In this document: positions 2,161 to 64,000 of the stretch, in pieces | How the letters are laid out: every line of letters starts with the position of its first letter | Position numbering within the stretch: position 1 is the stretch's first letter | Source: Thiocapsa rosea | GTDB lineage: Bacteria > Pseudomonadota > Gammaproteobacteria > Chromatiales > Chromatiaceae | Reading direction: 5' to 3' | DNA: 64,000 nucleotides | Assembly: GCF_003634315.1 (NCBI RefSeq) | Contig: NZ_RBXL01000001.1 | Span: forward strand, 666,501-730,500 | Translations under genes and position numbers: made by a program | Notes under the pieces: generated by a model | The model's input: only the letters and a program-made list of their open reading frames with translations | Told to the model about the DNA's origin: nothing | Databases searched by the model: none

Positions 2161-5735
<3,575 letters not shown>

Positions 5736-8604: not shown

Positions 8605-8690
8605 CTGAACCGCGCCCGGAACAACAGCCAAGGTCGCCTGTGGATTCGGCCTCTTGGCGATCAAGAGACCTCGCAGTCGACGCGGTTCAG
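8605..8690. repeat. Dispersed palindromic unit (TTAAACCGCG family), variant copy
   Basis: 86 bp bounded by CTGAACCGCG and its inverse CGCGGTTCAG, starting 2 bases after the sthA stop. The ends differ from the family consensus TTAAACCGCG at two positions on both sides in a compensating way, suggesting selection for pairing. Confidence 0.6.
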
Positions 8691-11416: not shown

Positions 11417-11632
11417 TGACTGATCCTTGAGATCGGCAGTGTGCTGCGCCTAGCCCGGGCGGTGGCCGACGACCGGTTGATCCACGACGACAGGATGCGG
11501 CAGCGCTCCCGCGCACCGTCCGGACGACAAGAGGCAAGATTCGAAAACCTGAATCGCGTCGACTCCGATGCCCGTGAATCCATGCGGCGTCGAGTCAACG
11601 TGAAGACGGCGCATGTCATTGAGGAACGCGAT

Positions 11633-13735
11633 TCAGTCACGCATCACCGCACGCGGCCGTTCGGTGCGATCGAGCAAGACGGCATCGGCGAGGATTCGGG
11701 CCGCCTCTTCCACCTGAATGCGCGCGATAGCCTCGCGTTGGGCATCGAGCAGGTCCTCGTCGACCTGCTCCTCGGAGTCCTCGTCCACCGGAGCAATTCC
11801 GCGAGCACGGAGGTAGCTGTTCTGCTGTTCCTTGAAGACGCTTCCGCGCAGCTCGTCGTCCTTGCGCCGAGCGCGCTCCTGGAGCGAGACGTGGGTTTGG
11901 GCCTCGACATCGCGCATCAGCTTGCTTCGCTCCACCAGCATCGTGAAGCCGGGATCTCTTGACACGCGCTCCGCTGACTGCAGCGCGAGGAGCTCGACGC
12001 TGACGGAGCCGACTTTCTTGTATTCGGCCGGTCGGATCCGAGTCCAAGGCAGGGCATTGTCGAGGGATCTCTCGCCGTGGTCGACCATAAAATCGGCAGT
12101 CGGGAAACGAATATCGGGCTCGACGCCACGCAACTGCGTGCTCCCGCCGCTGATACGGAAGAATTCGGCCATCGTCAGACGGAGGCGACCGAGATTGTTT
12201 TGCTCCCCGGGGACATAGCGATTCAGATCGATCAGGGTCTGCACGGTCCCCTTCCCGAAGGTGGGCTCGCCGATCACCAATCCGCGCCCGTAATCCTGGA
12301 TAGCGCCGGCAAAGATCTCGGAGGCGGAGGCACTGTCGCGATCCACCAGCACGGCCAAGGGGCCCCGGTAGGCAAGGCCGGGCTCCGGATCCGTCTCGAC
12401 CTCGATCTTGCCGAAGGCGTCCTTCACCTGCACGACCGGACCGGTATCGATGAAGAGACCGGTAAGCGAGGTCGCCTCGGCCAACGAGCCGCCGCCGTTG
12501 CCGCGCAGGTCGATCACGATGCCGTCGACGCCCTTCAGGACCAAGTCGTCGATCAGCTGGCGCACATCCCGGGTCGTGCTGCGGAAGTTTCGGTCACCCG
12601 AGCCCTCGGCTTGGAAATCTCGATAAAAGGCCGGGATCTCGATCACGCCGATCCGCATTCCAGGCGCGTTCTCCAGACTGTCCAGGACCGACCCTTTCGC
12701 GGCCTGATCTTCGAGCTTGATCTCGTTGCGTACGATCGCAACCTCGCGCACGCCGCCGTTGGTCGCAGCGGATTTGGGCAGAAGCTGCAGTCTCACGACC
12801 GAGCCCTTAGGTCCGCGAATCTTGTCGACGACGTCCTGGAGGCGCCATCCCACGACATCCTCGATCGCCCCGTCGAGACCCTGCGCAACCCCGACGATCC
12901 GGTCGCCCGTCTGGACCTGGCCGGACTCACGGGCCGGACCGCCCGGGACCGTGCTCTGAATCACCGTGTATTCGTTGTCCGCGCGCAGGACGGCGCCGAT
13001 ACCCTCCAGCGACAGCTTCATGCTGATGTCGAAGTTCTCGGAGGTGCTGGGCGACATGTAGCTCGTATGCGGCTCAAGCGTCTGGGTATAGGCATTCATG
13101 AACGTCTGGAAGACGTCGTTGCCGTCGAACTGATGGGTGCGACGAACCAACCCTTGATACCGCTCGCTCAGCCGTTCGCGAATCTCCTCGTCGGTCTTGT
13201 CGGCCATACGCAGGGTCAGGAAATCGTTCTTCACCCGCTTGCGCCAGATCTCGTCCAGCTCGGCGCTGTCCTTGGCCCAGGGCGCGTCCGGAGAGTCGAG
13301 CCTGTAGGTCTCTTCGCGATCGAAGTCGAAGGAGCCCTTCAAAAGACCTTCGGCATAGATGACGCGCTCGTCGACCCGCATCCGATAGACCCGAAAGACG
13401 TCGAACGCCAGATCGAGCTCGCCGCGACGCAGCCCTTCGTCCAAGCGTTTCGCGCCGCCCTTGAAGCGCTCGACATCGCGGGCCAGAAAGAAGGATCGGC
13501 TCGGATCCAGTGCCTTCAGATAGCTGTCGAGGACCTCTTGCGCAAAGTCGTGGTCGAGCTTGACCTTTCTATAGTGAAAGCGCTCCAGAACCTTGTTGAT
13601 CACGACCGCCGATTTGGTTTGGGCAGGGTTCGGGAACAGCTCCGAAAGGGGTATCTGACGAGGGGATGCAAGGACAAGTGTCGCCGCCAGGAAGGCTGCG
13701 ACGGCGAAGGCAAGGCGAGACAGGCGCGATCTCAT
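11633..13735 (-). CDS. prc: Tail-specific carboxy-terminal processing protease
   Basis: Periplasmic serine protease that trims or degrades proteins from their C-termini, including ssrA-tagged and envelope proteins. 700 residues with an N-terminal signal sequence (about 1-23). A PDZ domain lies at about 240-330 (SLEGIGAVL...TVPGGPARESGQVQTGDRI). The S41 core has VIDLRGNGGGSL (407-418), the catalytic serine region DRDSASASEIFAGA (466-478) and the lysine in GEPTFGKGTV (Lys495), forming the Ser-Lys dyad. The length and the extended domains on both sides of the core match Prc/Tsp rather than short CtpA. It stands alone on the minus strand. Confidence 0.95.
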   Translation of the reverse strand: MRSRLSRLAFAVAAFLAATLVLASPRQIPLSELFPNPAQTKSAVVINKVLERFHYRKVKLDHDFAQEVLDSYLKALDPSRSFFLARDVERFKGGAKRLDEGLRRGELDLAFDVFRVYRMRVDERVIYAEGLLKGSFDFDREETYRLDSPDAPWAKDSAELDEIWRKRVKNDFLTLRMADKTDEEIRERLSERYQGLVRRTHQFDGNDVFQTFMNAYTQTLEPHTSYMSPSTSENFDISMKLSLEGIGAVLRADNEYTVIQSTVPGGPARESGQVQTGDRIVGVAQGLDGAIEDVVGWRLQDVVDKIRGPKGSVVRLQLLPKSAATNGGVREVAIVRNEIKLEDQAAKGSVLDSLENAPGMRIGVIEIPAFYRDFQAEGSGDRNFRSTTRDVRQLIDDLVLKGVDGIVIDLRGNGGGSLAEATSLTGLFIDTGPVVQVKDAFGKIEVETDPEPGLAYRGPLAVLVDRDSASASEIFAGAIQDYGRGLVIGEPTFGKGTVQTLIDLNRYVPGEQNNLGRLRLTMAEFFRISGGSTQLRGVEPDIRFPTADFMVDHGERSLDNALPWTRIRPAEYKKVGSVSVELLALQSAERVSRDPGFTMLVERSKLMRDVEAQTHVSLQERARRKDDELRGSVFKEQQNSYLRARGIAPVDEDSEEQVDEDLLDAQREAIARIQVEEAARILADAVLLDRTERPRAVMRD

Positions 13736-13917: not shown

Positions 13918-14004
13918 TTAAACCGCGCCGGCTCCGACGGTCCTCGGAGCCGGCGCGGTCAATCCACTCCATCACATGACGCATACTGCACCCGGCGCGG
14001 TTTA
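13918..14004. repeat. Dispersed palindromic unit, alpha type, overlapping the def stop
   Basis: 87 bp from TTAAACCGCG to CGCGGTTTA. It contains an inner hairpin with stem GCGCCGGCTCCGA / TCGGAGCCGGCGC (13926-13956). The def stop codon (TAA, 14004-14002 on the minus strand) lies in the right terminal repeat. Read leftward from def it resembles the alpha unit at 24260. Confidence 0.8.
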
Positions 14005-14505
14005 GGTCTGGTAGACCTTGCGTCGGTACAGATCGGTGCGACGACTCACGACCCGATCGACGAACAGCAGACCGTCGAGATGGTCCATCTCATGCTGGAC
14101 GGCGCGCGCCTCGTATCCCTCCATCACGTACTCGGTCTCGCGGCCGTCGAGGTCCTGCGCCTTCAAGCGGATACCGGTTGCACGGATGACATTACCGGTG
14201 TAGTCCGGCACCGAGAGACAGCCCTCGCGGCCGATCGCATAACCTTCCCAATGGACGATCTCGGGATTCACCAGGATCAGGTAACCGTGATTGGGTGTCT
14301 TCGGACGACCCGAAACATCCACGATCACGATGCGCTGAAAGCGTCCGACCTGGGGGGCAGCAATGCCGACGGCGGCCGGACCGGCCAAGCGGGTCTCTTC
14401 CAGATCAGCCACGAAACCGCGCAAGTCCTCGTCGAAACACTCGACCGGCTCGGAGACCTGCTTCAGACGCGGGTCCGGAAGCTTGAGGATATCGAGGATT
14501 GCCAT
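14002..14505 (-). CDS. def: Peptide deformylase
   Basis: Metal-dependent hydrolase removing the N-formyl group from nascent proteins. 167 residues, the normal size, with all three motifs: GIAAPQVG (47-54), EGCLS (94-98, Cys96 a metal ligand) and HEMDH (138-142, two His ligands and the catalytic Glu). It begins 3 bases after the ACT-protein gene ends and so lies at the end of the run rluD-pgeF-ACT-def, not next to fmt as in E. coli. Its stop codon lies inside a dispersed repeat. Confidence 0.97.
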   Translation of the reverse strand: MAILDILKLPDPRLKQVSEPVECFDEDLRGFVADLEETRLAGPAAVGIAAPQVGRFQRIVIVDVSGRPKTPNHGYLILVNPEIVHWEGYAIGREGCLSVPDYTGNVIRATGIRLKAQDLDGRETEYVMEGYEARAVQHEMDHLDGLLFVDRVVSRRTDLYRRKVYQT

Positions 14506-17777: not shown

Positions 17778-17967
17778 TTAAACCGCGCCCTGCGCGGTAT
17801 GCGATGTTTTTGGATGGGTTCGACCCCGGCCGTTTTGACGAGCGCTGGAGCTGGCGCGGTTTAAGATATTCAAAAATATATTATTTTAAACCGCGTCCCC
17901 GCCAAGGGCCGTGCATGCACCAAACGTCGAACTCACTCGAAAGTGAGCATCTCGCTCTGGATGCGGT

Positions 17968-17970
<3 letters not shown>
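17778..17970. repeat. Composite alpha+beta dispersed repeat between bamD and glnB
   Basis: Alpha unit 17778-17864 (TTAAACCGCG to CGCGGTTTAA), AT-rich spacer 17865-17885 (contains AAAAATATATTA), beta unit 17886-17970. The glnB stop codon lies in the right end of the beta unit. The same composite plan recurs near 24.3, 61.9 and 63.5 kb. Confidence 0.85.
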
Positions 17971-18330
<360 letters not shown>

Positions 18331-20088: not shown

Positions 20089-20149
20089 GGCGGGATCCTC
20101 TAGTTGCAACAAGAAGCTTGGTGTGGCCGCCAACGGCCGGCCCCCGGCT

Positions 20150-20230
20150 ATTAGCTCTCAGCTCTCAGCTCTCAGCTATCAGCTATTAGCTATTAGCCCT
20201 CTGCTCTCTGCTCTCAGCTCTCAGAGCTGC
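20150..20230. repeat. Heptamer tandem array, left arm
   Basis: About 11 copies of a 7-bp unit of the form CAGCTCT/TAGCTAT. It is the reverse complement pattern of the array at 20270-20391, so the two can pair around a 39-base centre. It lies just upstream of the nadE start. Confidence 0.85.
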
Positions 20231-20269
20231 CAGCCTCCGCAAAAGGCGTATGAGGGAGCGACCCGGTTT

Positions 20270-20391
20270 GGCTGACGGCTGATAGCTGATAGCTGAGAGC
20301 TGATAGCTGACGGCTGATAGCTGACGGCTGACGGCTGATAGCTGGCGGCTGGCGGCTGGCGGCTGGCGGCTGGCGGCTGGCGGCTGGCGGC
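20270..20391. repeat. Heptamer tandem array, right arm
   Basis: About 17 copies of a 7-bp unit (A/G)GCTG(A/G)N. The first ten mix GGCTGAC, AGCTGAT and AGCTGAG; the last seven are nearly uniform GGCTGGC, indicating recent expansion at that end. It stops 5 bases before the sucD stop codon. Confidence 0.85.
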
Positions 20392-20396
20392 CATCA

Positions 20397-21269
20397 TCAC
20401 CCGCCGAGCAGCTCCGCCAGTCGACTCCCCATCTGCGCAGGCGAGCGCACGGTCACGGCACCCGCCTGCTCGAGGGCGGCGTACTTGCCCTCGGCCGTCC
20501 CGCGTCCGCCGGTGACGATCGCACCCGCATGTCCCATGCGTTTACCCGCGGGCGCCGTCACCCCGGCGATGTAGGCGACCAGCGGCTTGGAGATCCGCTC
20601 GCGGATGACCTCCGCGGCCTCTTCCTCGCCGCTGCCGCCGATCTCGCCGACCATGATGATCGCCTCGGTCTGCGGATCCTGCTCGAAGAGATCCAGACAG
20701 GCGATGAAATCGAGACCCTGGATCGGGTCCCCGCCGATTCCGATGCAGGTGCTCTGGCCCAGACCGGCTTGGGTCGTCTGCCAGACCGCTTCGTAGGTCA
20801 GGGTCCCGGAGCGCGAGACGATGCCGACCCGGCCGGGCGCATGGATGTTCCCCGGCATGATGCCGATCTTGCAGGCACCCGGCGTGATGATGCCGGGACA
20901 GTTGGGACCGATCAGGACCGCCGGGCTGCCCGCGAGCGCGGCCTTCACCCGCACCATATCCAGGACCGGGATCCCCTCGGTGATGCAGACGATAACCCGA
21001 ATCCCGGCGTCCGCCGCCTCCAGAATCGCATCGCCGGCATAAGCGGCAGGCACGTAGATCATGGTCGCATCCGCGCCCGTGTCGCGAACTGCTTGATGCA
21101 CGGTGTCGAAGACCGGCCGATCGAGATGGCGCTGCCCGCCCTTGCCGGGGGTCACGCCGCCGACCAGGTTGGTTCCGTAGGCGATCGCCTGCTCGCTGTG
21201 AAAGGTGCCCTGCTTGCCCGTGAAGCCCTGACAGATGACCCGTGTGTTGCTGTCGACCAGAACGCTCAT
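20397..21269 (-). CDS. sucD: Succinyl-CoA synthetase, alpha subunit
   Basis: With SucC interconverts succinyl-CoA and succinate with nucleotide triphosphate formation in the TCA cycle. 290 residues. The CoA-binding Rossmann domain opens [27 protein letters not shown], and the phosphohistidine is His247 in [16 protein letters not shown] 21269 restores the family N-terminus; the frame is open 132 bases further upstream inside sucC but that extension is a shadow of sucC. The start follows the sucC stop by one base, so the pair forms one operon. Confidence 0.96.
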
Positions 21270-22604: not shown

Positions 22605-24263
22605 ATGAGACGACCAATGACGAATCACCCCGAATCCACGGCGGGCCACCCGATTTCGGCAGCGCGCCCCGACAGCACTCGACAACCCGGGCAGCCCGGC
22701 CACCCGCATCCGACCTGGATCGCGCTGCGTTGGCTGTTTCTGTTTCGGCTCGTGGTGCTGATCGGACTCATCCTGCTCTTCTCACCCTCGGCGCTGGACC
22801 CGCTCATCACGCCCGCCAACGCCGCGCTGGCCTGGAACGTCCTCATCTTTTACGCCATTGTGGTGCTGCTGAGCGGGCTGAACCTCTACGCGCGGTGGCC
22901 GAGCCGCGGGAGCCAGGTCCACCTCGCCATCTACATCGATATCATCGCCTTCACCTTCTTGATGTATGCCGCGGGCGGCGCCGCAAGCGGTATCGGGATC
23001 CTGATCGGCGTCACCGTCGCTGCCGGGGCGCTCCTGATGGAAGGGCGCCTGGCGCTTCTGTTCGCGTCCTTCGCCGCCCTTGCCGTGCTCACCGAGCAGA
23101 TCTATTCGGACCTTTACGGGCACGTGGCGACCGCAAGCTATACCCAGGCCGGCCTCCTCGGCGCCATCTTCTTCGCCGTGGCGCTGCTGGCGCATGTGCT
23201 CTACCGCAGGGTGCGCGAGGCCGAGGCCATGGCGGCGCGACGCACGGTCGATATCGCCAATCTGACCAAGCTCAACGCCTTCATCATCGCCAACCTCGAC
23301 ACGGGCATCCTCGTCGTCGACGGCGAGCGTCACCTGCGCCTGAAGAACAAGGCCGCCCTGGAGCTCCTCGACGTCGATGCGATTAAGCCCGGCAGCTCAC
23401 TGGTGGACTTCTCCCCGGAGGTCGTCGAGTGGCTCGAGACCCAGGTCCAAAACCCGGCGCCGGAGGGCACGGTCATGCGGGTCGGCGAGCGCGAGCTGCG
23501 TGCGACCCTTAAGCTTCTCGGCGATTATCGCGCCTCCGGCGCCTTGATCTATCTGCGCGACAACCAGGAGCTTACCCGCGAGGCCCAACAGATCAAGCTC
23601 GCGGCACTCGGCACACTCACCGCCAGCATTGCCCACAACATCCGCAACCCGTTGAGCGCCATCACCCATGCGAGCCAGCTCTTCGCCGACGGCAAGGATC
23701 TGCCCGAAGACGACCGCCACCTGCTCGACATCATCCGGCGCAACAGTGCGCGCATCGACGAGACGGTGCGCAGTGTTCTCCAGCTTTCGCGCCGCGACCG
23801 CATGGATCCGGTGTCGATCGATGCGGCACTCTGGATCGAGGAGTTTGCCGAGGAGTTTCGCGAGACCCACCGACTCGCACCGGACCGTCTCACGCTCGAG
23901 ATCACCTTCTCGCCCGACCCGGTCGAGGTGGATCCGCGCCACCTGCACCAGATCGTTTCCAACCTCTGCGAGAACGCGCTGATTCACGGCGGATACGGCA
24001 ATGAGCCGCCGCGGATCAAGATCCGCCTCCTGCCGATCGGCGAGACCGCAGATCAGCCACTGATCGAGATCGCCGACGAGGGACCCGGAATCGACGCCAA
24101 GACCGCGCGCGACATCTTCAATCCATTCTTCACCACGAAGACCAGCGGCACGGGCCTCGGTCTGTATATCGCCCGAGAATTGGCCGAGACCAACGGCATC
24201 CATCTCACCTACGAGCGCGCCGATCCCCACGGCAGCCGATTCAGACTCCACTTCACCCGTTAA
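22605..24263 (+). CDS. pilS: Sensor histidine kinase PilS
   Basis: Membrane kinase that, with PilR, controls sigma-54 transcription of type IV pilin. About 552 residues: six hydrophobic segments between about 35 and 205, a PAS-like region (about 215-325, NAFIIANLDTGILVVDG), a HisKA domain with phospho-acceptor His344 in ASIAHNIRNPLSAI, and an ATPase domain with N-box NLCENALIHGG, DEGPGI and GTGLGLYIA. The residue after His344 is Asn, where HExRNP is usual. The start is uncertain: ATG 22578, 22605 and 22617 are possible; 22605 has the nearest GAGGG. The TAA stop sits in a dispersed repeat. pilR follows after 385 bases, an unusually wide gap for this pair. Confidence 0.88.
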   Translation: MRRPMTNHPESTAGHPISAARPDSTRQPGQPGHPHPTWIALRWLFLFRLVVLIGLILLFSPSALDPLITPANAALAWNVLIFYAIVVLLSGLNLYARWPSRGSQVHLAIYIDIIAFTFLMYAAGGAASGIGILIGVTVAAGALLMEGRLALLFASFAALAVLTEQIYSDLYGHVATASYTQAGLLGAIFFAVALLAHVLYRRVREAEAMAARRTVDIANLTKLNAFIIANLDTGILVVDGERHLRLKNKAALELLDVDAIKPGSSLVDFSPEVVEWLETQVQNPAPEGTVMRVGERELRATLKLLGDYRASGALIYLRDNQELTREAQQIKLAALGTLTASIAHNIRNPLSAITHASQLFADGKDLPEDDRHLLDIIRRNSARIDETVRSVLQLSRRDRMDPVSIDAALWIEEFAEEFRETHRLAPDRLTLEITFSPDPVEVDPRHLHQIVSNLCENALIHGGYGNEPPRIKIRLLPIGETADQPLIEIADEGPGIDAKTARDIFNPFFTTKTSGTGLGLYIARELAETNGIHLTYERADPHGSRFRLHFTR

Positions 24264-24463
24264 ACCGCGCCCGGTCCGGTATGCGTCATTTGCTGGAATG
24301 GCTTGGCCACGCCGGCTCCGACGACTACGGGAGATGGCGCGACTTAAGATATTAAAAATATATTATTTTAAACCGCGTCCCCGCTAAGGGGCGTGGATGC
24401 ACCAAATGTCGAGCCCACTCGAAGGTGAGAATCTCGCTCTGGAGGCGGTTTGGACGCGGTTTA
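24260..24463. repeat. Composite alpha+beta dispersed repeat between pilS and pilR
   Basis: Alpha 24260-24347, AT-rich spacer with AAAAATATATTATT, beta from 24368 to 24463. The beta end is extended by a partial duplication (GGAGGCGGTTTGGACGCGGTTTAA region, 24441-24463). The pilS TAA (24261-24263) is bases 2-4 of the left terminal repeat. Confidence 0.85.
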
Positions 24464-26029: not shown

Positions 26030-27433
26030 ATGACACCCTCGAATTCCGAACCGAACGCCCCTGCCCCAACCCGGGATCCCTTCGTCGACTGGGTGCGCCA
26101 GGCCACACCCTACATCCACGCGCACCGCGGACGCACCTTCGTGATCGTCTTCGGCGGCGAGGCGGTCGCGGATCCGCGCTTCCCGGACCTGGTCCACGAT
26201 ATCGCCCTGCTGCACGGGCTCGGTATCCGGCTCGTGCTAGTGCACGGTGCCCGTCCCCAGATCGAGGCCCGACTCGCCGGCCGCGGTGCGCAGCTGCGCT
26301 ATGTCAACGGGTTGCGGATCACGGATCAGACCGCACTCGCCTGTGTGAAGGAGGCCGCCGGGGTGGTCCGGGTCGAGATCGAGGCACTGCTCTCGCTCGG
26401 GCTCGCCAACTCGCCGATGGCCGGAGTGCGCATCCCGGTCGTCTCGGGCAACTTCGTCACGGCGCGCCCCCTGGGCGTCATCGACGGGGTCGACTACGCC
26501 CACACCGGGGCGGTGCGGCGGATCGACCGTCAAACGCTGCGGGCGGTCCTCGATCAGGGCGCGGTCGCCTTGATGCCGCCGCTGGGGTATTCGCCGACCG
26601 GCGAGGTCTTCAATCTCAGCGCGGCCGACGTGGCGCGCGGCGCGGCTGTCGCGCTCGGTGCCGACAAGCTGATCTTTCTCACCGAGGATCCCGTCGCCAA
26701 GGATTCCGTCGTCAAGGATTCCGGCGGGGATGCGTCCCCGGACGGCGACCCTCGTGAATTGCCCCAGGATCTGCTGGGACCCAACCTCTTGGCCCGCGAC
26801 ATCGACGCCCTGCTCGCCGCCTCGAGCGGGATCCCCGAGGATGTCGCCCAATGCCTGCGCGCCGGTGCCGAGGCCTGCCGCAACGGGATCCGACGCGTGC
26901 ACCTGGTGCGGCGCCGGCGCGGGGGTGCGCTGCTGCGCGAGCTCCTCACACCCGACGGGAGCGGCACCCTGATCTCAGCCGAGCCTTACGAGGAGCTACG
27001 TCCGGCACGTATCGACGACGTCACGGGGATCCTCGAGCTGCTGCGCCCGCTGGAGGAACGCGGTGTTCTGGTGCGGCGCTCGCGCGAGCGCTTGGAGACC
27101 GAGATCGACCGCTTCTTCCTGACCGAGCGCGACGGCCTGATCACGGCCTGCGCGGCACTCTATCCTTACCCGAGTGCGGGGATGGCGGAGTTGGCCTGCG
27201 TCGCCGTGCACCATGAGTATCGCGCGACCGGGCGCGGAGATCGGCTGCTTGCTCATACGGAAGACATGGCCCGCGCCGGCGGCATCGCACGCTTGTTCGT
27301 CCTCACCACCCAAGCCGCGCATTGGTTTCGAGAGCGCGGTTTCGAGCCGGCATCGCTCGGTGCCCTGCCGATGGAGCGGCAAGCCCTGTACAACTTCCAG
27401 CGCAACTCGCAGGTCTACATCAAGGTCCTTTAA
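26030..27433 (+). CDS. argA: Amino-acid N-acetyltransferase (N-acetylglutamate synthase)
   Basis: First step of arginine synthesis, acetyl-CoA plus glutamate. 467 residues: an N-terminal amino-acid kinase-like, arginine-sensing domain (FVIVFGGEAVADPRF, LVLVHGARPQIEARL) and a C-terminal GNAT domain (LACVAVHHEYRATGRGDRLL, VLTTQAAHWFRERGFEP). The C-terminus LYNFQRNSQVYIK is shared with E. coli ArgA. The protein is about 24 residues longer than E. coli ArgA; part of this is an insert near residues 222-245 that includes a 15-bp tandem duplication (26694-26723) encoding AKDSVVKDS. Its TAA stop lies in a dispersed repeat. Confidence 0.94.
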   Translation: MTPSNSEPNAPAPTRDPFVDWVRQATPYIHAHRGRTFVIVFGGEAVADPRFPDLVHDIALLHGLGIRLVLVHGARPQIEARLAGRGAQLRYVNGLRITDQTALACVKEAAGVVRVEIEALLSLGLANSPMAGVRIPVVSGNFVTARPLGVIDGVDYAHTGAVRRIDRQTLRAVLDQGAVALMPPLGYSPTGEVFNLSAADVARGAAVALGADKLIFLTEDPVAKDSVVKDSGGDASPDGDPRELPQDLLGPNLLARDIDALLAASSGIPEDVAQCLRAGAEACRNGIRRVHLVRRRRGGALLRELLTPDGSGTLISAEPYEELRPARIDDVTGILELLRPLEERGVLVRRSRERLETEIDRFFLTERDGLITACAALYPYPSAGMAELACVAVHHEYRATGRGDRLLAHTEDMARAGGIARLFVLTTQAAHWFRERGFEPASLGALPMERQALYNFQRNSQVYIKVL

Positions 27434-27516
27434 ATCGCGTCCCGTGCGATCTGCGCGGGCATTGTGTCCGCTCGGCGTCGAGCGCGCCTAGAAGCGCTTG
27501 AGCGGACACGATTTAA
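27430..27516. repeat. Dispersed palindromic unit overlapping the argA stop
   Basis: 87 bp from TTAAATCGCG to CGATTTAA, with a matching change in both ends relative to TTAAACCGCG. The argA TAA is bases 2-4. The interior differs from alpha and beta and holds an inverted repeat GTGTCCGCTC / GAGCGGACAC. Confidence 0.75.
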
Positions 27517-35784: not shown

Positions 35785-35870
35785 TTAAGCCGCGACGGCT
35801 CCAGCGCGCGTCAAGTCTGCCGGGGCCGATCCTATCCAAAAACATCGCATACCGCGCTGGGCGCGGTTTA
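35785..35870. repeat. Dispersed palindromic unit, alpha type, overlapping the pyrF stop
   Basis: 86 bp from TTAAGCCGCG to CGCGGTTTA. Read leftward it shows GCGCGGTATGCGATGTTTTTGG, shared with the alpha units near 17.8 and 61.9 kb. The pyrF TAA (35870-35868 on the minus strand) lies in its right end. Confidence 0.85.
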
Positions 35871-36566
35871 GGCTACGAGCGAATCCTCGATCGCCCGAAG
35901 CGCGGCAAGCGGGTCCTCGGCCTCCGTGATCGGGCGGCCGATCACCAGGTCGTCCGCTCCGGCGGCAAGCGCATCGCGCGGCGTCATGACGCGCACCTGA
36001 TCCCCGAGCGACGCACCGGCCGGCCTCACGCCCGGTGTGACCAGCCGAAAATCCGGGCCCTGCGCCGCGCGGACCGCGGCCGCCTCCAACGGCGAGCAGA
36101 CCACGCCGTCGAGACCCGCGGCATGCCCGAGGGCTGCGAGCGCAAGGACCCGCTCGCCGGGCTCGCCGGGGCAGCCGACGGCGCTCAGATCCTCCCGACT
36201 CAGGCTGGTGAGCAGGGTCACGCCGATCAGCAACGGCCGGCTCGACATGGCATCGAGTCGCGCGCGCGCAGCCTCGATCATCCGGGTCCCGCCCGAGATA
36301 TGCAGGTTCACCATCCAGACCCCGAGATCCGCCGCAGCAGCGCAGGCACCCGCGACCGTGTTGGGGATATCGTGAAACTTCAGATCGAGAAAGACCTCGA
36401 ACCCGCGCACCTGCAACACCTCGATGAACGCCGGCCCGCATCGCGTGAACAGCTCCTTGCCGACCTTGAGCCGGCAGCGCGTCGGATCGAGACGCTCGAC
36501 CAGGGCAAGGGCTTGGGCCTCGCTCGCGAAATCGAGCGCGACGATAATGCGTTTGGATTGCGTCAC
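35868..36566 (-). CDS. pyrF: Orotidine 5-phosphate decarboxylase
   Basis: Last step of UMP synthesis. 232 residues: IIVALDFAS opening, catalytic lysine/aspartate block [13 protein letters not shown], and the C-terminal VTPGVRP and [10 protein letters not shown] phosphate-binding loops. Start is GTG 36566, with GAGG 7 bases upstream, giving [11 protein letters not shown]; the upstream open frame to 36776 is not similar to the family. It is downstream of lapB as in most gammaproteobacteria, with a 145-base gap. Its stop codon lies in a dispersed repeat. Confidence 0.95.
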
Positions 36567-38894: not shown

Positions 38895-39397
38895 TGCGCG
38901 CCCTGTACTTTCGCCGGCAAGGACAGAGCAAAAACCGCGACACCCGATCGGAAGACCGATCGGATCGAGCGCACAACAACAGGAAAGGCCCGCTTCGTCG
39001 CTGGGCAGCAGCAGTGCTCCTCATCGCGGGCCTCGGCCTCGAAAGTGCCGCTGCAGCGCCTCTGGACGAGGCGACCAAACAGCTTTTGATCGAAGCGGTC
39101 GAGGCCGCCTACGTGGTGGATCTCTACCACTCGCGCTGCCGCAGCGACGGCTCCAACCGTCGCACCGAGAACCTCAACAAGCTGCTCGCCAGCCGCATGC
39201 GCATGACCGTGCTGCGGGTCCAGGACGACGTCTTTCCCGAGCGCAATTATCGCAAGGTCCAGGAGCGCCTTCAGCGCGAGTTCCTCGACATGCTGGCCGA
39301 GAACGGCGGGTGCGCCGGGGTGAAGGACTCGGAACTCCCCGTAGAGTTTCGAGCACGTTACGACGAAAAGATGCGTGCAATCGAAGCGCTTCCCTAA
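38894..39397 (+). CDS. Exported protein of unknown function
   Basis: 167 residues. A long basic N-terminal region (about 1-36) precedes a hydrophobic stretch AAAVLLIAGLGLESAAAAPL with likely signal cleavage near 55. The mature part is helical and charged with two Cys (in HSRCRSDG and NGGCAGVKD), which could form a disulfide in the periplasm. I do not recognise a family. The ATG overlaps the TGA of the SDR gene. The true start could be an internal codon giving a shorter n-region, but no internal ATG lies before the hydrophobic stretch. The TAA stop is inside a dispersed repeat. Confidence 0.65.
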   Translation: MRALYFRRQGQSKNRDTRSEDRSDRAHNNRKGPLRRWAAAVLLIAGLGLESAAAAPLDEATKQLLIEAVEAAYVVDLYHSRCRSDGSNRRTENLNKLLASRMRMTVLRVQDDVFPERNYRKVQERLQREFLDMLAENGGCAGVKDSELPVEFRARYDEKMRAIEALP

Positions 39398-39479
39398 ACC
39401 GCGTCCAGAGCGAGATGGTCATTTTCGAGTGAGTTCGACGTTTAGCGCATCCAAAGCCCTTAGAAGGGACGCGGTTTAA
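39394..39479. repeat. Dispersed palindromic unit, beta type reversed
   Basis: 86 bp from CTAAACCGCG to CGCGGTTTAA. Its reverse complement matches the beta units (GGGACGCGG end, TGGATGC-CAAACGTCGAAC-CACTCGAAAATGA block, CGCTCTGGACGCGG end). The stop of the exported unknown protein (39395-39397) is in its left end. Confidence 0.85.
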
Positions 39480-48555: not shown

Positions 48556-48606
48556 TATCCCGGCCTGACAACCCAATACGACACTCCAGCCGCACACCCC
48601 GGGTAC

Positions 48607-48707
48607 GCCGACTTCAGTCGGCACCTGGGGAGGCGGACTTCAGTCCGCCGCGCGGGCGCGTTCGGGCGACTGCAGTCGCCCGTCCCCGGGAGCCGGATGA
48701 ATCCGGC
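48607..48707. repeat. Cluster of four short palindromes upstream of the SNF2 gene
   Basis: Perfect or near-perfect palindromes GCCGACTTCAGTCGGC (48607-48622), GGCGGACTTCAGTCCGCC (48632-48649), GGGCGACTGCAGTCGCCC (48664-48681) and GCCGGATGAATCCGGC (48692-48707), at 8-15 base intervals. They differ in sequence but share the 16-18 bp hairpin design, with GGGTACGCC-type joints. Confidence 0.8.
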
Positions 48708-52015: not shown

Positions 52016-52864
52016 ATGAGCAACCCGGGCAGAACCTGGTGGGGGAGCCGCTTCCTGGCGGCATTGGAAGGCTTCACGGACAGCGGCCGCTTGGAGCGCG
52101 GACGCGCCTACAGCAGCGACAGTCGTATCCTCGAGTTCGCCATCGTCGACGGCATGGTGACGGCGACCGTGCGCGGCAACATCAACCCCTACTTCGGCGT
52201 CTACAAAGAGCCGAAGTACAAAACCCGTATCCAGATGACCCCGTTGGCCGCGGACGCCTGGGCCCGCGCGATCGCCCGGATCGGCAGTCGCGCCGGACTG
52301 GTCGCACGCCTGTCGATGAACGAGATGCCGGACGACATCGAGTCCGCGTTTGCCGGAAAAGGCAAAGGCACCGGCACTGGCCTGCTGCCGCGCAATCGCC
52401 AGGACTTCAAGCTCACCGACTGCTCCTGCCCCGACAGCGCCAACCCTTGCAAGCACATCGCCGGGGTCTATTACAGGCTGGCCCACCAACTCGATCACGA
52501 CCCCTTCCTGCTGTTCGAATTGCGTGGTCTCGGCCGAGAGCAACTGCGCAAGGCCCTCGCCAAAACCCCGCTCGGCAACGCACTGCACGGGCTCGCCGAG
52601 ACCGACAAACCGGAGCCAGTCGCAACCGACAGCTACTTCACCCGGCCCCAGCCCACGAGCGCATCACCCGACTATCACGCCTTTTGGCACGGCACCAAGC
52701 GCCTGCCGCGCGAGCTACCGCCGATGCGCGCCGCCGAGGTGCCGGCCATCCTGATCCGCAAAGGCGGCGACTATCCCGCGTTCTGGGACAGGGATGCCTC
52801 GTTCGTCGCACTCATGGAGGAGCTGTACCTGCGGGTACGCGAGAAAAACAAGACCCTGCTTTAA
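52016..52864 (+). CDS. SWIM zinc-finger protein
   Basis: 282 residues. The SWIM motif CxC...CxH is complete: Cys136, Cys138, Cys145 and His147 (DCSCPDSANPCKHIAGVYY). The N-terminal part has the conserved RLERGRAYSSDSRI and TVRGN blocks of SWIM proteins paired with SNF2 helicases. SWIM domains bind DNA or proteins. The gene is 22 bases after the SNF2 gene and surely in its operon; the pair probably acts together on DNA. CTT-TAA at the end places the stop inside a dispersed repeat unit. Confidence 0.92.
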   Translation: MSNPGRTWWGSRFLAALEGFTDSGRLERGRAYSSDSRILEFAIVDGMVTATVRGNINPYFGVYKEPKYKTRIQMTPLAADAWARAIARIGSRAGLVARLSMNEMPDDIESAFAGKGKGTGTGLLPRNRQDFKLTDCSCPDSANPCKHIAGVYYRLAHQLDHDPFLLFELRGLGREQLRKALAKTPLGNALHGLAETDKPEPVATDSYFTRPQPTSASPDYHAFWHGTKRLPRELPPMRAAEVPAILIRKGGDYPAFWDRDASFVALMEELYLRVREKNKTLL

Positions 52865-52946
52865 ACCGCGTCCAGAGCGACATGCGTCATTTTCATTTTG
52901 TGTCCAGCGTCGGAGACGTCCTTGCTCTTGGCGAGACGCGGTTTAG
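52861..52946. repeat. Dispersed palindromic unit, beta-like reversed, overlapping the SWIM gene stop
   Basis: 86 bp from TTAAACCGCG to CGCGGTTTAG. The left portion (GTCCAGAGCGACATG-GTCATTTTCA) matches the reversed beta unit at 39394; the right half has diverged. Confidence 0.8.
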
Positions 52947-52969
52947 AGTTTAATTTTTTTTGCACTTGA

Positions 52970-53023
52970 ACCCGCGCTGGCGCCGACAAATGGCGCATAC
53001 CGTGCGCACCGGGCGCGGTTTAA
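52970..53023. repeat. Truncated alpha unit, reversed
   Basis: Only about 54 bp: CGCTGGCGCCGAC, CGCATACCG-GCGC and the end CGCGGTTTAA. The left terminal repeat is missing. A T-run (TTTAATTTTTTTT) lies between it and the preceding beta-like unit. Confidence 0.6.
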
Positions 53024-53050
53024 GCAACATGCCCCGGCGGCAATGTTCGT

Positions 53051-53203
53051 GCCGACTAAAGTCGGCGTACCCAGGTGCCGGTTGAAACCGGCGAACCCAC
53101 ACCTGGGTACGCCGACTTGAGTCGGCCCCCCGGGAAGGCGGACTTCAGTCCGCTGGGTACGCCGACTTGAGTCGGCCCCTGGGGAGGCGGACTTCAGTCC
53201 GCC
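53051..53203. repeat. Cluster of six short palindromes downstream of the SNF2/SWIM pair
   Basis: GCCGACTAAAGTCGGC (53051), GCCGGTTGAAACCGGC (53077), GCCGACTTGAGTCGGC (53111 and 53161), GGCGGACTTCAGTCCGC (about 53138) and GGCGGACTTCAGTCCGCC (about 53186). Two nearly identical blocks, 53105-53154 and 53155-53203, show a tandem duplication of about 50 bp. Confidence 0.8.
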
Positions 53204-53216
53204 GTCTGCTGCGCCC

Positions 53217-57945: not shown

Positions 57946-58031
57946 TTAAACCGCGTCCCACCGACGCCGCAGAGATCAGCCGAGACCAACCTCACCACCG
58001 GCCATCACATATCCCGCCGGACGCGGTTTAA
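57946..58031. repeat. Dispersed palindromic unit overlapping the greA stop
   Basis: 86 bp from TTAAACCGCG to CGCGGTTTAA, perfect 10-bp inverted ends. The interior matches neither alpha nor beta. The greA TAA (58030-58028 on the minus strand) is in its right end. Confidence 0.85.
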
Positions 58032-58504
58032 ACGTACTTGACTTCCAGGATCTCGAACTCACGCACCCCTCCCGGCACCTGCACCGAGGTGACATCGCCT
58101 TCACTCTTGCCGATCAGACAGCGGGCAATGGGCGAGCCGACCGAGATCTTGCCCTGCTTCAGATCCGCTTCGTCCTCGCCGACGATCTGGAAGCTGTGCT
58201 CGATATCCTTGTCCAGCTCCAACACCTGCACGGTCGCGCCGAAGACGACCCGCCCGTTGGCGGCGAGCTGCGTCACGTCGATGATCTGGGCGTTCGCGAG
58301 CTTGCCCTCGATATCCTGAATACGCCCTTCGACGAAGCCCTGCTGCTCGCGTGCGGCATGGTACTCGGCGTTTTCCTTCAGATCGCCGTGCGCCCGCGCC
58401 TCGGCGATCGCCTCGATGATCCGGGGGCGCTCGATACGCTTGAGCCGCTCGAGCTCTTCGCGCAATTTCTCAGCGCCTCCGACAGTCAGAGGGACCTGAT
58501 TCAT
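58028..58504 (-). CDS. greA: Transcription elongation factor GreA
   Basis: Rescues backtracked RNA polymerase by stimulating transcript cleavage. 158 residues, the E. coli length. The N-terminal coiled coil has the acidic tip in [17 protein letters not shown], and the C-terminal domain has [28 protein letters not shown] precedes ATG 58504. It follows carB as in many gammaproteobacteria, but a strong terminator lies between, so it probably has its own promoter in the remaining interval. Confidence 0.97.
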
Positions 58505-58635: not shown

Positions 58636-61845
<3,210 letters not shown>

Positions 61846-61862: not shown

Positions 61863-62055
61863 TTAAACCGCGCCCAGCGCGGCATGCGATGTTTTTGGAT
61901 GGGATCGGCTCCGGCAGACTTGACGAGCGCTGGAGTCGGCGCGGTTTAAGAGATCAAAAGCGATATCCTTTTAAACCGCGCCCCCGGTAACGGCCGTGGA
62001 TGCACCAAACGTCGAACACACTCGAACATCAGCATCTCGCTCCGGGCGCGGTTTA
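61863..62055. repeat. Composite alpha+beta dispersed repeat filling the carA-carB gap
   Basis: Alpha 61863-61949, spacer 61950-61970, beta 61971-62055. The carA TAA (62055-62053 on the minus strand) lies in the beta end. The whole carA-carB interval except 17 bases is this element. Confidence 0.9.
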
Positions 62056-63198
62056 TGCCTTGCGGGCGCGCATGAGCTCGATGAAACGATCGAAGAGCGG
62101 TGCGAGATCATGGGGACCCGGACTGGCCTCGGGGTGACCCTGGAATCCGAATGCGGGGCGATCACGATGCCGGATGCCCTGCAGACTGCCGTCGAACAAG
62201 GAGCGATGGGTGGCCTCGACCGTCGGGGGCAGACTCTCCTCGTCGACCGCGAAGCCGTGGTTCTGGCTGCTGATCATGACCTCGCCGGTGGCGAGGTCCT
62301 GCACCGGGTGATTCGCACCGTGATGGCCGAACTTCATCTTCAGCGTGCGCGCGCCGCTGGCGAGGCCCAGCAGCTGGTGGCCGAGACAGATGCCGAAGAG
62401 CGGCATGTCGGCATCCAGCAGCTCGCGGATCGCCTCGATCGCATAATCGCAGGGCTCCGGATCGCCCGGACCGTTGGACAGAAAGACCCCGTCAGGCTTC
62501 AGACCCAGCACCGTCGTCGCCGGCATGTGCGCGGGGACGACCGTGACGTGGCAGCCGCGCGAGGCGAGCATCCGCAGGATGTTGCGCTTGATGCCGTAGT
62601 CGTAGGCGACGACATGGAAGGGCAGACGATCGCCGACCGGATGAATGGACTCGGGATGGCCCTCGCCCAGCACCCAGACGCCTTGGGTCCAGGCATAGGT
62701 CTCGGAGGTCGAGGCATGCTGCGCCAGATCCATCCCCTTGAGGCCCGGAAAGCCCTGCGCCTCGCGCAGCGCCGCCGCCTCGTCGATCCCGTCGCCGGCC
62801 TGAAGGCAGCCGTTTTGGGCGCCCTTCTCGCGCAGCAGTCGGGTCAACCGTCGGGTGTCGATATCGGCGATGCCGACGATGCCTTGGCGCCGCAGATAGG
62901 CGTCGAGACGCTCGGTCATGCGAAAGTTGCTGGGCAGGATCGGCAGGTCGCGGATGATAAGACCGGCGGCCTGAACGCGGTCGGACTCCTCGTCCTCCGG
63001 GTTCGTCCCGACATTGCCGATATGCGGGTAGGTCAGGGTGACGAGCTGTCGCAGATAGGAGGGATCGGTGAGGATCTCCTGATATCCGGACATAGCGGTG
63101 TTGAACACCACCTCGCCGACGCTCGATCCATCGGCGCCGATCGACGTTCCCCGGAAGACGGAGCCGTCCTCCAGCACGAGTACCGCGGGTTTGCTCAA
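62053..63198 (-). CDS. carA: Carbamoyl-phosphate synthase, small (glutaminase) subunit
   Basis: Supplies ammonia from glutamine to CarB. 381 residues from TTG 63198, preceded by GGAG 6-7 bases away, giving [17 protein letters not shown]; the frame is open to 63444 without similarity. The class I amidotransferase domain has nucleophile Cys271 in [12 protein letters not shown] and the His/Glu pair in [12 protein letters not shown]. In carAB operons the genes are usually close; here a 193-bp repeat element lies between. Upstream, 255 bases hold the promoter region with a TGCGTC-TCG-GACGCA hairpin near 63425-63439. Confidence 0.96.
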
Positions 63199-63453
63199 GG
63201 GTTTCTCCGATCCGGGCGGGGGCGTACAAGGGCCGCGACGCGAACGTGGGTGACGGCACAATGTCGCCTGGGCGGGCACACAGGCACCGACCTGACCCGT
63301 CGGAATTCTAAAGAAGCCGCGCTCGAGTGTCCATGCGCACCGTGATGACGAACGACGACAAGCCGCAGAACGGCAGGGCCGAAAAGTGCTCGCGCTGCCG
63401 GCAGAGGGGTCCGCAACGAGACCTGCGTCTCGGACGCAGTGCAAGAATCAGTA

Positions 63454-63645
63454 TTAAACCGCGCCCGGCGCGGTATGCGATGTTTCGGATGGGATCGGCC
63501 AAGGCAGGCATGGCGGCCGTTGGAGCCGACGCGCTTTAATGTACTCGAAAATTTATCATTCTAAACCGCGTCCCCGCTAAGGGCTGTAGATGCACCAAAC
63601 CTCGAGCACACTCGAAAATCAGCATTTCGCCCCGGACGCGGTTTA
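63454..63645. repeat. Composite alpha+beta dispersed repeat between carA and trxC
   Basis: Alpha 63454-63539, AT-rich spacer, beta 63561-63645. The trxC TAA (63645-63643 on the minus strand) lies in the beta end. Confidence 0.88.
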
Positions 63646-64000
63646 GAGCGCCTGCCGCGCCCAGGCGATGATCCCGTTCGTATCCATCGCCCCAGCCGTG
63701 CGCGCGACCTCCGCACCCCCGCGAAACAGCGCCAGTGTCGGGATGCTGCGGATGCCGAAACGCGCACCCAGGGCTTGAGCCTCCTCGGTGTTGATCTTGA
63801 CCAGACGCATGTTCGGCTCGAGCCGAGCGGCGGCGGCCTCGAAGGCCGGGGCCATCATCCGGCAGGGTCCGCACCAGGGCGCCCAGAAATCCACCAGAAG
63901 CGGCAGATCGCTGCGCGAGAGATGGCGCGCAAATCGGGGCTCGTCCAGCGCCAGCGGCTGGCCGAGAAACAGCTGACCGTGACACTTGCCGCATTTCGCG
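63643..64000 (-). CDS. trxC: Thioredoxin 2 (N-terminus beyond window)
   Basis: The 118 visible residues start inside the zinc-binding region (AKCGKCHGQLF, second CxxC pair), followed by the thioredoxin fold with active site FWAPWCGPCRMM and cis-Pro loop IRSIPTLALF. The N-terminal zinc CxxC distinguishes TrxC from TrxA; the first pair lies outside the window. It reduces protein disulfides and helps under oxidative stress. The TAA stop is inside a dispersed repeat. The start codon is not in the window. Confidence 0.92.
   Translation of the reverse strand, partial: AKCGKCHGQLFLGQPLALDEPRFARHLSRSDLPLLVDFWAPWCGPCRMMAPAFEAAAARLEPNMRLVKINTEEAQALGARFGIRSIPTLALFRGGAEVARTAGAMDTNGIIAWARQAL

Follow-up and report, generated by a model that had tools for sequence, protein, structure and literature searches.

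Results

Overview of the element

The window analyzed here, a whole stretch of 64,000 nt (C1:666501-730500) of the Thiocapsa rosea genome (G000; 6.11 Mb in two contigs, C1 and C2), contains multiple copies of a small repeat that is most likely an IS630-type MITE, as judged from its two-base insertion footprints together with ends that match those of IS630 elements. It is a short element with terminal inverted repeats, its footprint has two bases (mostly TA), and its ends are shared with IS630; an autonomous partner in the same genome, a usual but non-defining trait of MITEs, was not found in the own genome.

We consider it very probable that the repeat is a high-copy, non-autonomous IS630-type MITE, with mobilization, pair decay and stop-codon placement along the following lines. 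The main mobile form would be a composite of ∼193 bp, in which two imperfect hairpins of ∼85 bp stand heads-out (the head is the unit end facing outwards in a pair) on either side of a 20-23 bp AT-rich spacer. A putative TA-targeting DDE transposase of the IS630 family would recognize the heads, and insertion would duplicate two bases, in either orientation and with a preference for YTAR. Resident pairs would become singles through deletions whose endpoints lie in directly repeated unit ends ∼107 bp apart, and singles may finally shrink to mini-hairpins of ∼23 bp, a decay that is clear at two sites and from there extended to the family. About half of the copies would have settled on a pre-existing stop codon, which the opening codon of the element then supplies; a bias toward stop-codon contexts probably combines with retention there, and the stop-side hairpin may act on the mRNA 3′ end. 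The species comparison gives a record of IS630-type MITE spread and decay, with filled, empty, pair, single and mini-hairpin states at the same sites. The mobile element in question occupies stop codons while leaving the genes intact.

Repeat unit, composite plan and copy number

The four window composites form one repeat family of 193 nt, with copies at 17778, 24260, 61863 and 63454 (63453 by repeat search). The initial annotation had placed an alpha unit, an AT-rich spacer and a beta unit at these positions, and this layout was borne out, with a spacer of 20-23 bp in the copies excised by script. Its division into two unit types was right about the two-part plan and wrong about the types: the alpha profile and the beta profile each match the other unit on the opposite strand, and alpha and beta are therefore diverged copies of one unit, the composite being an inverted pair. 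The ∼85-bp unit starts with TAAACCGCG and finishes with CGCGGTTTA, and 58 of the 70 end-to-end spans below 500 bp measured 84-86 bp. By eye, diverged subfamilies retain the ends, the length and, when paired, the AT-rich spacer. The two unit ends covary at three positions (z = 9-10 against shuffles, 132 units), for which inheritance within subfamilies may be an alternative source. Rfam gave no match at gathering score across the 64-kb window.

When the composite was used as a DNA query against the own genome, at least 43 matches were returned (best 40 of 611 candidates scored); 40 matches cover ∼190 of its 194 bases with 86-100% identity, whereas three are weaker or partial. The beta core, allowing two or fewer mismatches, occurs 169 times in the genome (84 forward, 85 reverse; none for a reversed control pattern), which disposes of the concern that there might be no genome copies outside the four in the window.

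Units were counted in a 764-kb sample of the own genome that comprises the window, 19 spaced 20-kb stretches of C1, one stretch of C2 and 300 kb round the window. It holds 144 units in 102 elements, i.e., 42 pairs and 60 singles, and the orientation is heads-out in all 42 pairs. From 86 units in 464 kb (window plus spaced stretches, the 300-kb flank block being excluded) we extrapolated ∼1,130 (about 1,100) units per genome, or 1.6% of the sequence. Several sampled stretches, mostly of lower GC, have few or no units, and 20 kb of C2 has none. Zero or one unit was observed on C1 near 3.3, 4.46-5.06, and 5.62 Mb, and on C2 at 100-120 kb.

Copies in the window

The composite at 17778..17971 (+) consists of alpha (17779-17864), the AT-rich spacer and beta (17886-17970), and its beta end is the TAA stop of a P-II gene (17968-18318, -). 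In the composite at 24260..24453 (+) it is the alpha end that forms the TAA stop, here of a histidine-kinase gene (22617-24263, +); this copy is missing from at least five congeners (G001, G003, G004, G008, and G009). The composite at 61863..62056 (+) lies between a carA-like gene (62053-63444, -; named from a reading of the translation and a sequence search) and the gene at 58636-61845 (-), and provides the stop codon of the former. Among the carA matches listed, all of which came from other genera and near relatives of which were outside the comparison, the best was Thiococcus pfennigii at 80%. The fourth, at 63454..63646 (+), has its beta end on the stop of a gene starting at 63643 (-). Contrary to the initial annotation, the order relative to the gene end is therefore not fixed: three composites have the beta end on the stop and 24260 has the alpha end there.

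The single units annotated at 13918, 35785 and 39394 were recovered by repeat and profile searches. The first (13918..14004, -) has its head on the stop of 14002-14505 (-), and the site is empty in G008. The second, an alpha unit (35785..35870, -), is on the stop of 35868-36566 (-) and absent in six relatives. The third (39395..39479, +), a reverse complement of beta, has its head on the stop of 39014-39397 (+).

Five diverged units, near 8608, 11551, 27431, 52862 and 57946, were found in addition to those annotated initially. The element at 52862..53030 (+) is a beta2-type unit (52862-52945) whose partner, beyond an AT-rich spacer, is truncated (by eye); its head is on the stop of 52016-52864 (+). 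A diverged single at 57946..58030 (-) is on the stop of 58028-58504 (-). Three units are old. The single at 27431..27516 (+), which is on a stop codon, is retained in eight species including T. rosea; the stop codon is TAA, TGA or TAG depending on the species, and a matching change at both ends is seen in G001 and not in G009. The unit at 11551..11633 (-), with TGAATCGCG ends, is on the stop of 11633-13735 (-), and its ends are identical across six species including T. rosea while the interior has diverged. The diverged unit at 8608..8689 (+), with TGAACCGCG/CGCGGTTCA ends, lies 5 bp past a stop codon.

The window contains other repeats as well. An array of 7-bp units (AGCTGAC/AGCTGAT type) that makes up a ∼100-bp inverted repeat follows nadE at 20126-20402; the gap after nadE is 186 bp in the own genome and 45 bp in G001. 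Two 38-nt repeats (GTTTCAATCCGCGCC...) that lie 72 bp apart at 1599-1708 have a CRISPR-like look.

Distribution among genomes

The composite query found a match in 11 of 56 genomes. Nine of the 11 genomes of the genus were positive (G006 with a partial match only), as were two (G025 and G028) of the 24 other genomes of the family; no match was found in 21 genomes from elsewhere in the class. Among ten chosen genomes searched later, composite matches were strong in G159 and weak in G102 and G100. In G159 the search returned at least 43 composite matches (40 of 96 candidates scored). The composite was not found in plasmid or phage records, and one exact beta-derived pattern was absent from viral contigs.

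Empty sites and the insertion footprint

Ten congeners were compared with T. rosea, over ∼366 kb each of G001, G004, and G009, smaller blocks (29-67 kb) of G002, G003, G005, and G008, and 20 kb of G006, G007, and G010. At thirty site clusters an element present in one species is matched by flanks that close up in another; since clusters 8 and 27 are one stop codon with different left flanks, the 30 are not strictly independent. The 24260 composite lies outside these clusters, its empty sites having been compared separately. In 21 of the 30 clusters the empty allele has exactly two bases between the flanks. The dinucleotide, tallied by eye, is TA in at least one relative at 10 of these clusters, only CA, TG or CG at 8, and different at 3: AA (site 16), TC (site 26), and a CG with one flank poorly aligned (site 4). 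Four further clusters (2, 5, 13, and 21) read TA by eye but one base off, and the remaining five give no exact reading. Where the ends of the element read TA, the preceding base is a pyrimidine in 80 of 84 cases and the next base is a purine, again in 80 of 84.

At the eight sites with CA, TG or CG only (3, 6, 7, 8, 14, 22, 23, and 27), every relative examined (two or more at several sites) lacks TA, whereas the filled allele reads TA. These sites are a real exception that a strict TA rule does not predict. Two histories could account for them: a mutation that created TA ahead of insertion, or an insertion step that accepts YR, followed by conversion of the ends to TA, with the inner unit ends perhaps serving as the template within a hairpin. 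Filled alleles with one odd end were seen in G000 at site 12 and in G003 at site 27.

Other comparisons also point to mobility. One ATTGATTTAAGTT site has received insertions of opposite orientation in G001 and G002, and G001 contains near-identical copies (L067, L077, and L087, by eye). The carA/carB composite is common to G000, G001, G004, and G009, with a 71-bp remnant in G005; it is precisely absent in G002 (the site is uncovered in G003 and G008). Because G002 is nested within the filled group on a tree of eight genes of the carAB region, we read its site as a probable precise loss or a swap for an empty allele; allele exchange and repeated insertion would also be compatible.

Decay of pairs

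A pair in one species corresponds to a single in another at sites 2, 4, 10, 13, and 27. The unit ends form direct repeats ∼107 bp apart, so that the change from pair to single can be a simple deletion. At sites 10 and 27, shared letters indicate such a deletion: the remnant and the pairs share letters at site 10, and at site 27 the single of G004 contains the right-hand, stop-side unit of the pair in G003 and G005. Mini-hairpins of 23 bp, with little beyond the unit ends (L043:18101-18123, and G004 at site 2), look like the last stage of decay.

IS630 elements with matching ends

None of the seven DDE_3 loci in the own genome has matching ends or units on both sides, and a transposase of the matching subfamily was not found there, the closest protein match being 26% identical. 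As the own genome has no matching copy, we infer the transposase itself, and the present mobilizer may have been lost. Among 33 of the 48 DDE_3 places listed for the genus, G007 contributed a 1,277-bp IS630-family element with TA-flanked ends that resemble the unit heads, and, L281 aside, one locus (L282) had a complete unit, on one side only. Close relatives of the G007 transposase occur in other genera of the family, at 88% in G166 (411-aa frame), 78% in G079, and 71% in G135 (405-aa frame). The G135 match is present at three places with equal score, and transposase fragments were found in further genomes; the G135 protein is an IS630 transposase by NCBIfam NF033545 (E = 4.1e-52) and Pfam DDE_3 (PF13358, E = 9e-23). 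G159, of another genus, contains broken pieces of IS630 transposase in addition to its composites. The unit profile matches one end at eight of nine transposase loci, starting from model position 1 (E = 3e-6 to 3.5e-3), and five of these eight have TA-flanked ends on both sides; the ninth locus, L306, merely has a composite alongside.

The heads were compared with the IS ends over 36 ungapped bases and against 5,000 shuffles. The head of the 52862 (beta2) unit matches the right IS ends at 31/36 (G166), 30 (G079), 29 (G007), and 27 (G135) positions and the left IS ends at 23-25/36, the shuffle maximum being 22 or less (21 or less for the best pairing of 31/36). The alpha head matches right ends at 24-26/36 and left ends at 23-25/36 (shuffles 21 or less). 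For the beta head the range is 21-26/36, and its three weakest comparisons (22, 22, and 21 of 36) stand against shuffle maxima of 22, 23, and 20. At the level of aligned letters, the resemblance of heads to IS630 ends is clear, and best for beta2 and the right ends. The assignment of alpha to the left end and beta to the right end is not supported, since the alpha head fits left and right IS ends about equally. Six unit-end spans of IS size (0.8-3 kb) are present in the 464-kb sample.

Placement on stop codons

We used a simple codon-model caller to predict genes; its output fits five family-supported genes. In the 764-kb sample, 54 of the 102 elements coincide to the base with the stop of a neighbor, the element contributing the stop as its opening codon. 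Stops inside an element make up 53 of 151 TAA, 3 of 410 TGA, and 0 of 109 TAG stops; about a third of the TAA stops sampled are thus element-derived. With a looser criterion, 35 of 64 elements are at stops (464-kb sample). Over eleven genomes, with orthologues counted repeatedly, 98 of 158 elements are exactly on a stop. The association is weaker in other genera, with 3 of 8 in G159 and 1 of 4 in G028 (four of its seven loci, the other three being too short), and one of four IS630 copies (L281) is on a stop codon. Some pairs, e.g., L043:8264-8455, give the stops of both convergent neighbors (2 of 42 in the own genome and 4 of 21 in congeners). For pairs at one stop codon (764 kb), the stop-side unit is alpha in 12, beta in 4, and another type in 5.

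The coincidence with stops could be a mere by-product of TA rarity in genes and of selection against insertions elsewhere: a YTAR target often fits stop codons, and 63 of the 64 elements in the 464-kb sample are intergenic. We regard this as possible, if hardly probable. The enrichment, with an odds ratio of 17 against free intergenic TA, still holds against intergenic YTAR (odds ratio 8). It also holds in the intergenic gaps of convergent gene pairs, which should lack promoters (27 elements at stops and 13 not, set against 705 free TA sites, in eleven genomes with orthologues repeated). Moreover, pairs that best match the window composite, and are presumed young on that account, are also on stops, as seen for 14 of 30 such pairs in the own genome and for 12 of 21 from congeners. 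Further signs that point beyond a by-product are the preserved ends of old copies and a bias in orientation: singles associated with a stop have the head toward it in 25 of 31 cases (p = 0.0009), as compared with 6 sense and 12 antisense among the other singles in tandem contexts.

Of the 15 clusters associated with a stop, 13 already have one at the same position in the empty relative (by eye). TGA accounts for six of these pre-existing stops (at site 9 it was read in five of the six relatives), TAG for four and TAA for three. In most cases, then, the stop is older than the element, and it is often TGA, though the element brings TAA. It is conceivable, but we think doubtful, that the transposon family prefers any stop codon including TGA, that its own first codon puts TAA in place of the host stop, and that the duplicated CA/TG becomes TA when the outer ends are corrected, on a hairpin template, from the inner copies. 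If this were true, the element would over time have captured roughly one in three TAA stops genome-wide and would be the 3′ end structure of those mRNAs.

Folding and possible function at mRNA 3′ ends

In the fold check that the initial annotation had called for, the composite as RNA gave z = -5.16, with none of 200 shuffles as good; as single-stranded DNA it gave z = -3.78, with a different best structure in which the outer ends are unjoined. Nine of the ten window units folded as RNA with z from -1.97 to -4.97, the exception being 35785 (z = +0.20). The pairs were aligned at 53 composite loci (partial L075, L085, and L086 were left out, as was L076), and RNAalifold scored the whole at -33.4 and the units apart at -15.0 and -18.1. 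In single-sequence predictions, all 53 pairs had a lower MFE as a whole than their two units added together, and the outer ends were joined in 47 of 53.

These folds, better than those of shuffles, would also be expected of a host regulatory RNA element, a terminator or mRNA 3′ stabilizer, whose function is its position at the stop and whose mobility is incidental. The share of elements on stops, the head-to-stop bias with its reverse tendency in other tandem-context singles, and the ends of the 11551 unit, the same in six species, would fit such an element. So would the 17778 site, where the ten compared relatives have 54-362 bp of other sequence instead, which in G001 includes a terminator-like hairpin (by eye). 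We nevertheless consider it unlikely, because the two-base empty sites, the near-identical copies in G001 and the IS630-like ends are those of a transposon, about half of the copies are off stops, and a pair has heads on both sides. In addition, the stem is followed by only three U (by eye), which does not make an ordinary Rho-independent terminator.

For the IS630-type MITE, the head bias, the preserved ends and the RNA folds together favor site preference plus retention as mRNA 3′ structure. An intrinsic preference would be an unusual way for a DDE transposase to choose its targets; if selection is responsible, a parasite would have been widely domesticated as mRNA 3′ ends.

RAYT-like genes of the own genome

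REPs are short palindromes of 20-40 nt with a conserved tetranucleotide. The initial annotation had likened the composite to a REP/BIME pair mobilized by a tyrosine-HuH transposase, and the genome-wide, inverted, BIME-like plan stands, whereas the mobilizer is not supported. A BIME-like composite of REP-type palindromes moved by a RAYT acting on single-stranded hairpins would agree with an intergenic, high-copy, palindromic inverted pair, with the RAYT-like genes present in the own genome, and with precise empty sites and the apparent precise loss in G002, but it is highly improbable and largely refuted, given the ∼85-bp units, the terminal inverted repeats, two-base footprints and heads that match an IS630 element, and the nine own-genome Y1_Tnp (PF01797) loci, none of which has units on both sides within 1.5 kb each way. 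One of the nine, L059, has a unit-like stretch (TGAACCGCG...CGCGGTTCA, 3146-3229; profile E = 0.08) on one side, ∼1.3 kb from the RAYT-like gene. The window also has REP-like palindromes (GGGTACGCCGACTTCAGTCGGC...) of a separate family at 48601-48650 and 53051-53204, and the RAYT-like genes of the own genome may have these as their true substrates.

Comparison with known systems

Among the titles and abstract starts listed in searches of the open-licence literature, none dealt with this repeat or with MITEs placed at stop codons, nor, for this group, with an inverted pair of homologous hairpins around a fixed spacer. In the sections of PMC2229807 and PMC3049150 that describe it, the RUP element of Streptococcus pneumoniae is a single unit of 107 bp in 108 copies, with a partner, IS630-Spn1, that is common in the species; RUP with IS630-Spn1 is, on these descriptions, the printed precedent for an IS630-type MITE. 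Like the present element, RUP is small, intergenic and foldable, with TA ends and IS630-like terminal repeats, and it is non-coding, as the present element would be (PMC2229807; PMC3049150). The element described here differs from RUP, as there portrayed, in being an inverted pair of homologous units, in its extrapolated number of ∼1,100, in having its partner only in relatives, and in its association with stops.

The other systems are compared from similarly partial descriptions. BOX elements of S. pneumoniae are likewise modular composite small repeats, but they consist of boxA, a variable boxB array and boxC (PMC3049150), whereas two homologous inverted modules with a fixed spacer are found here. 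ERIC/RU-1, YPAL/RU-2, and Correia/NEMIS elements are likewise small and mobile, have TA at their ends and give transcripts with long stem-loops (PMC2229807); the relevant part of that review names an IS match for RUP only, and ERIC, YPAL, and Correia are compared here by description. REP/BIME elements with RAYT share the palindromes in alternating orientation (PMC2817692) and differ in mobilizer and unit length, the own-genome loci giving the present element no RAYT link. SPRITE of S. pneumoniae is enriched near gene 3′ ends, with a proposed co-option as terminators, but it is an 18-bp duplex with a long U-rich tract, and the account of it in PMC3049150, as far as it was available, mentions no supply of stop codons. 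The inverted pair of homologous hairpins with a fixed AT-rich spacer, together with the stop-codon association, sets the Thiocapsa element apart.
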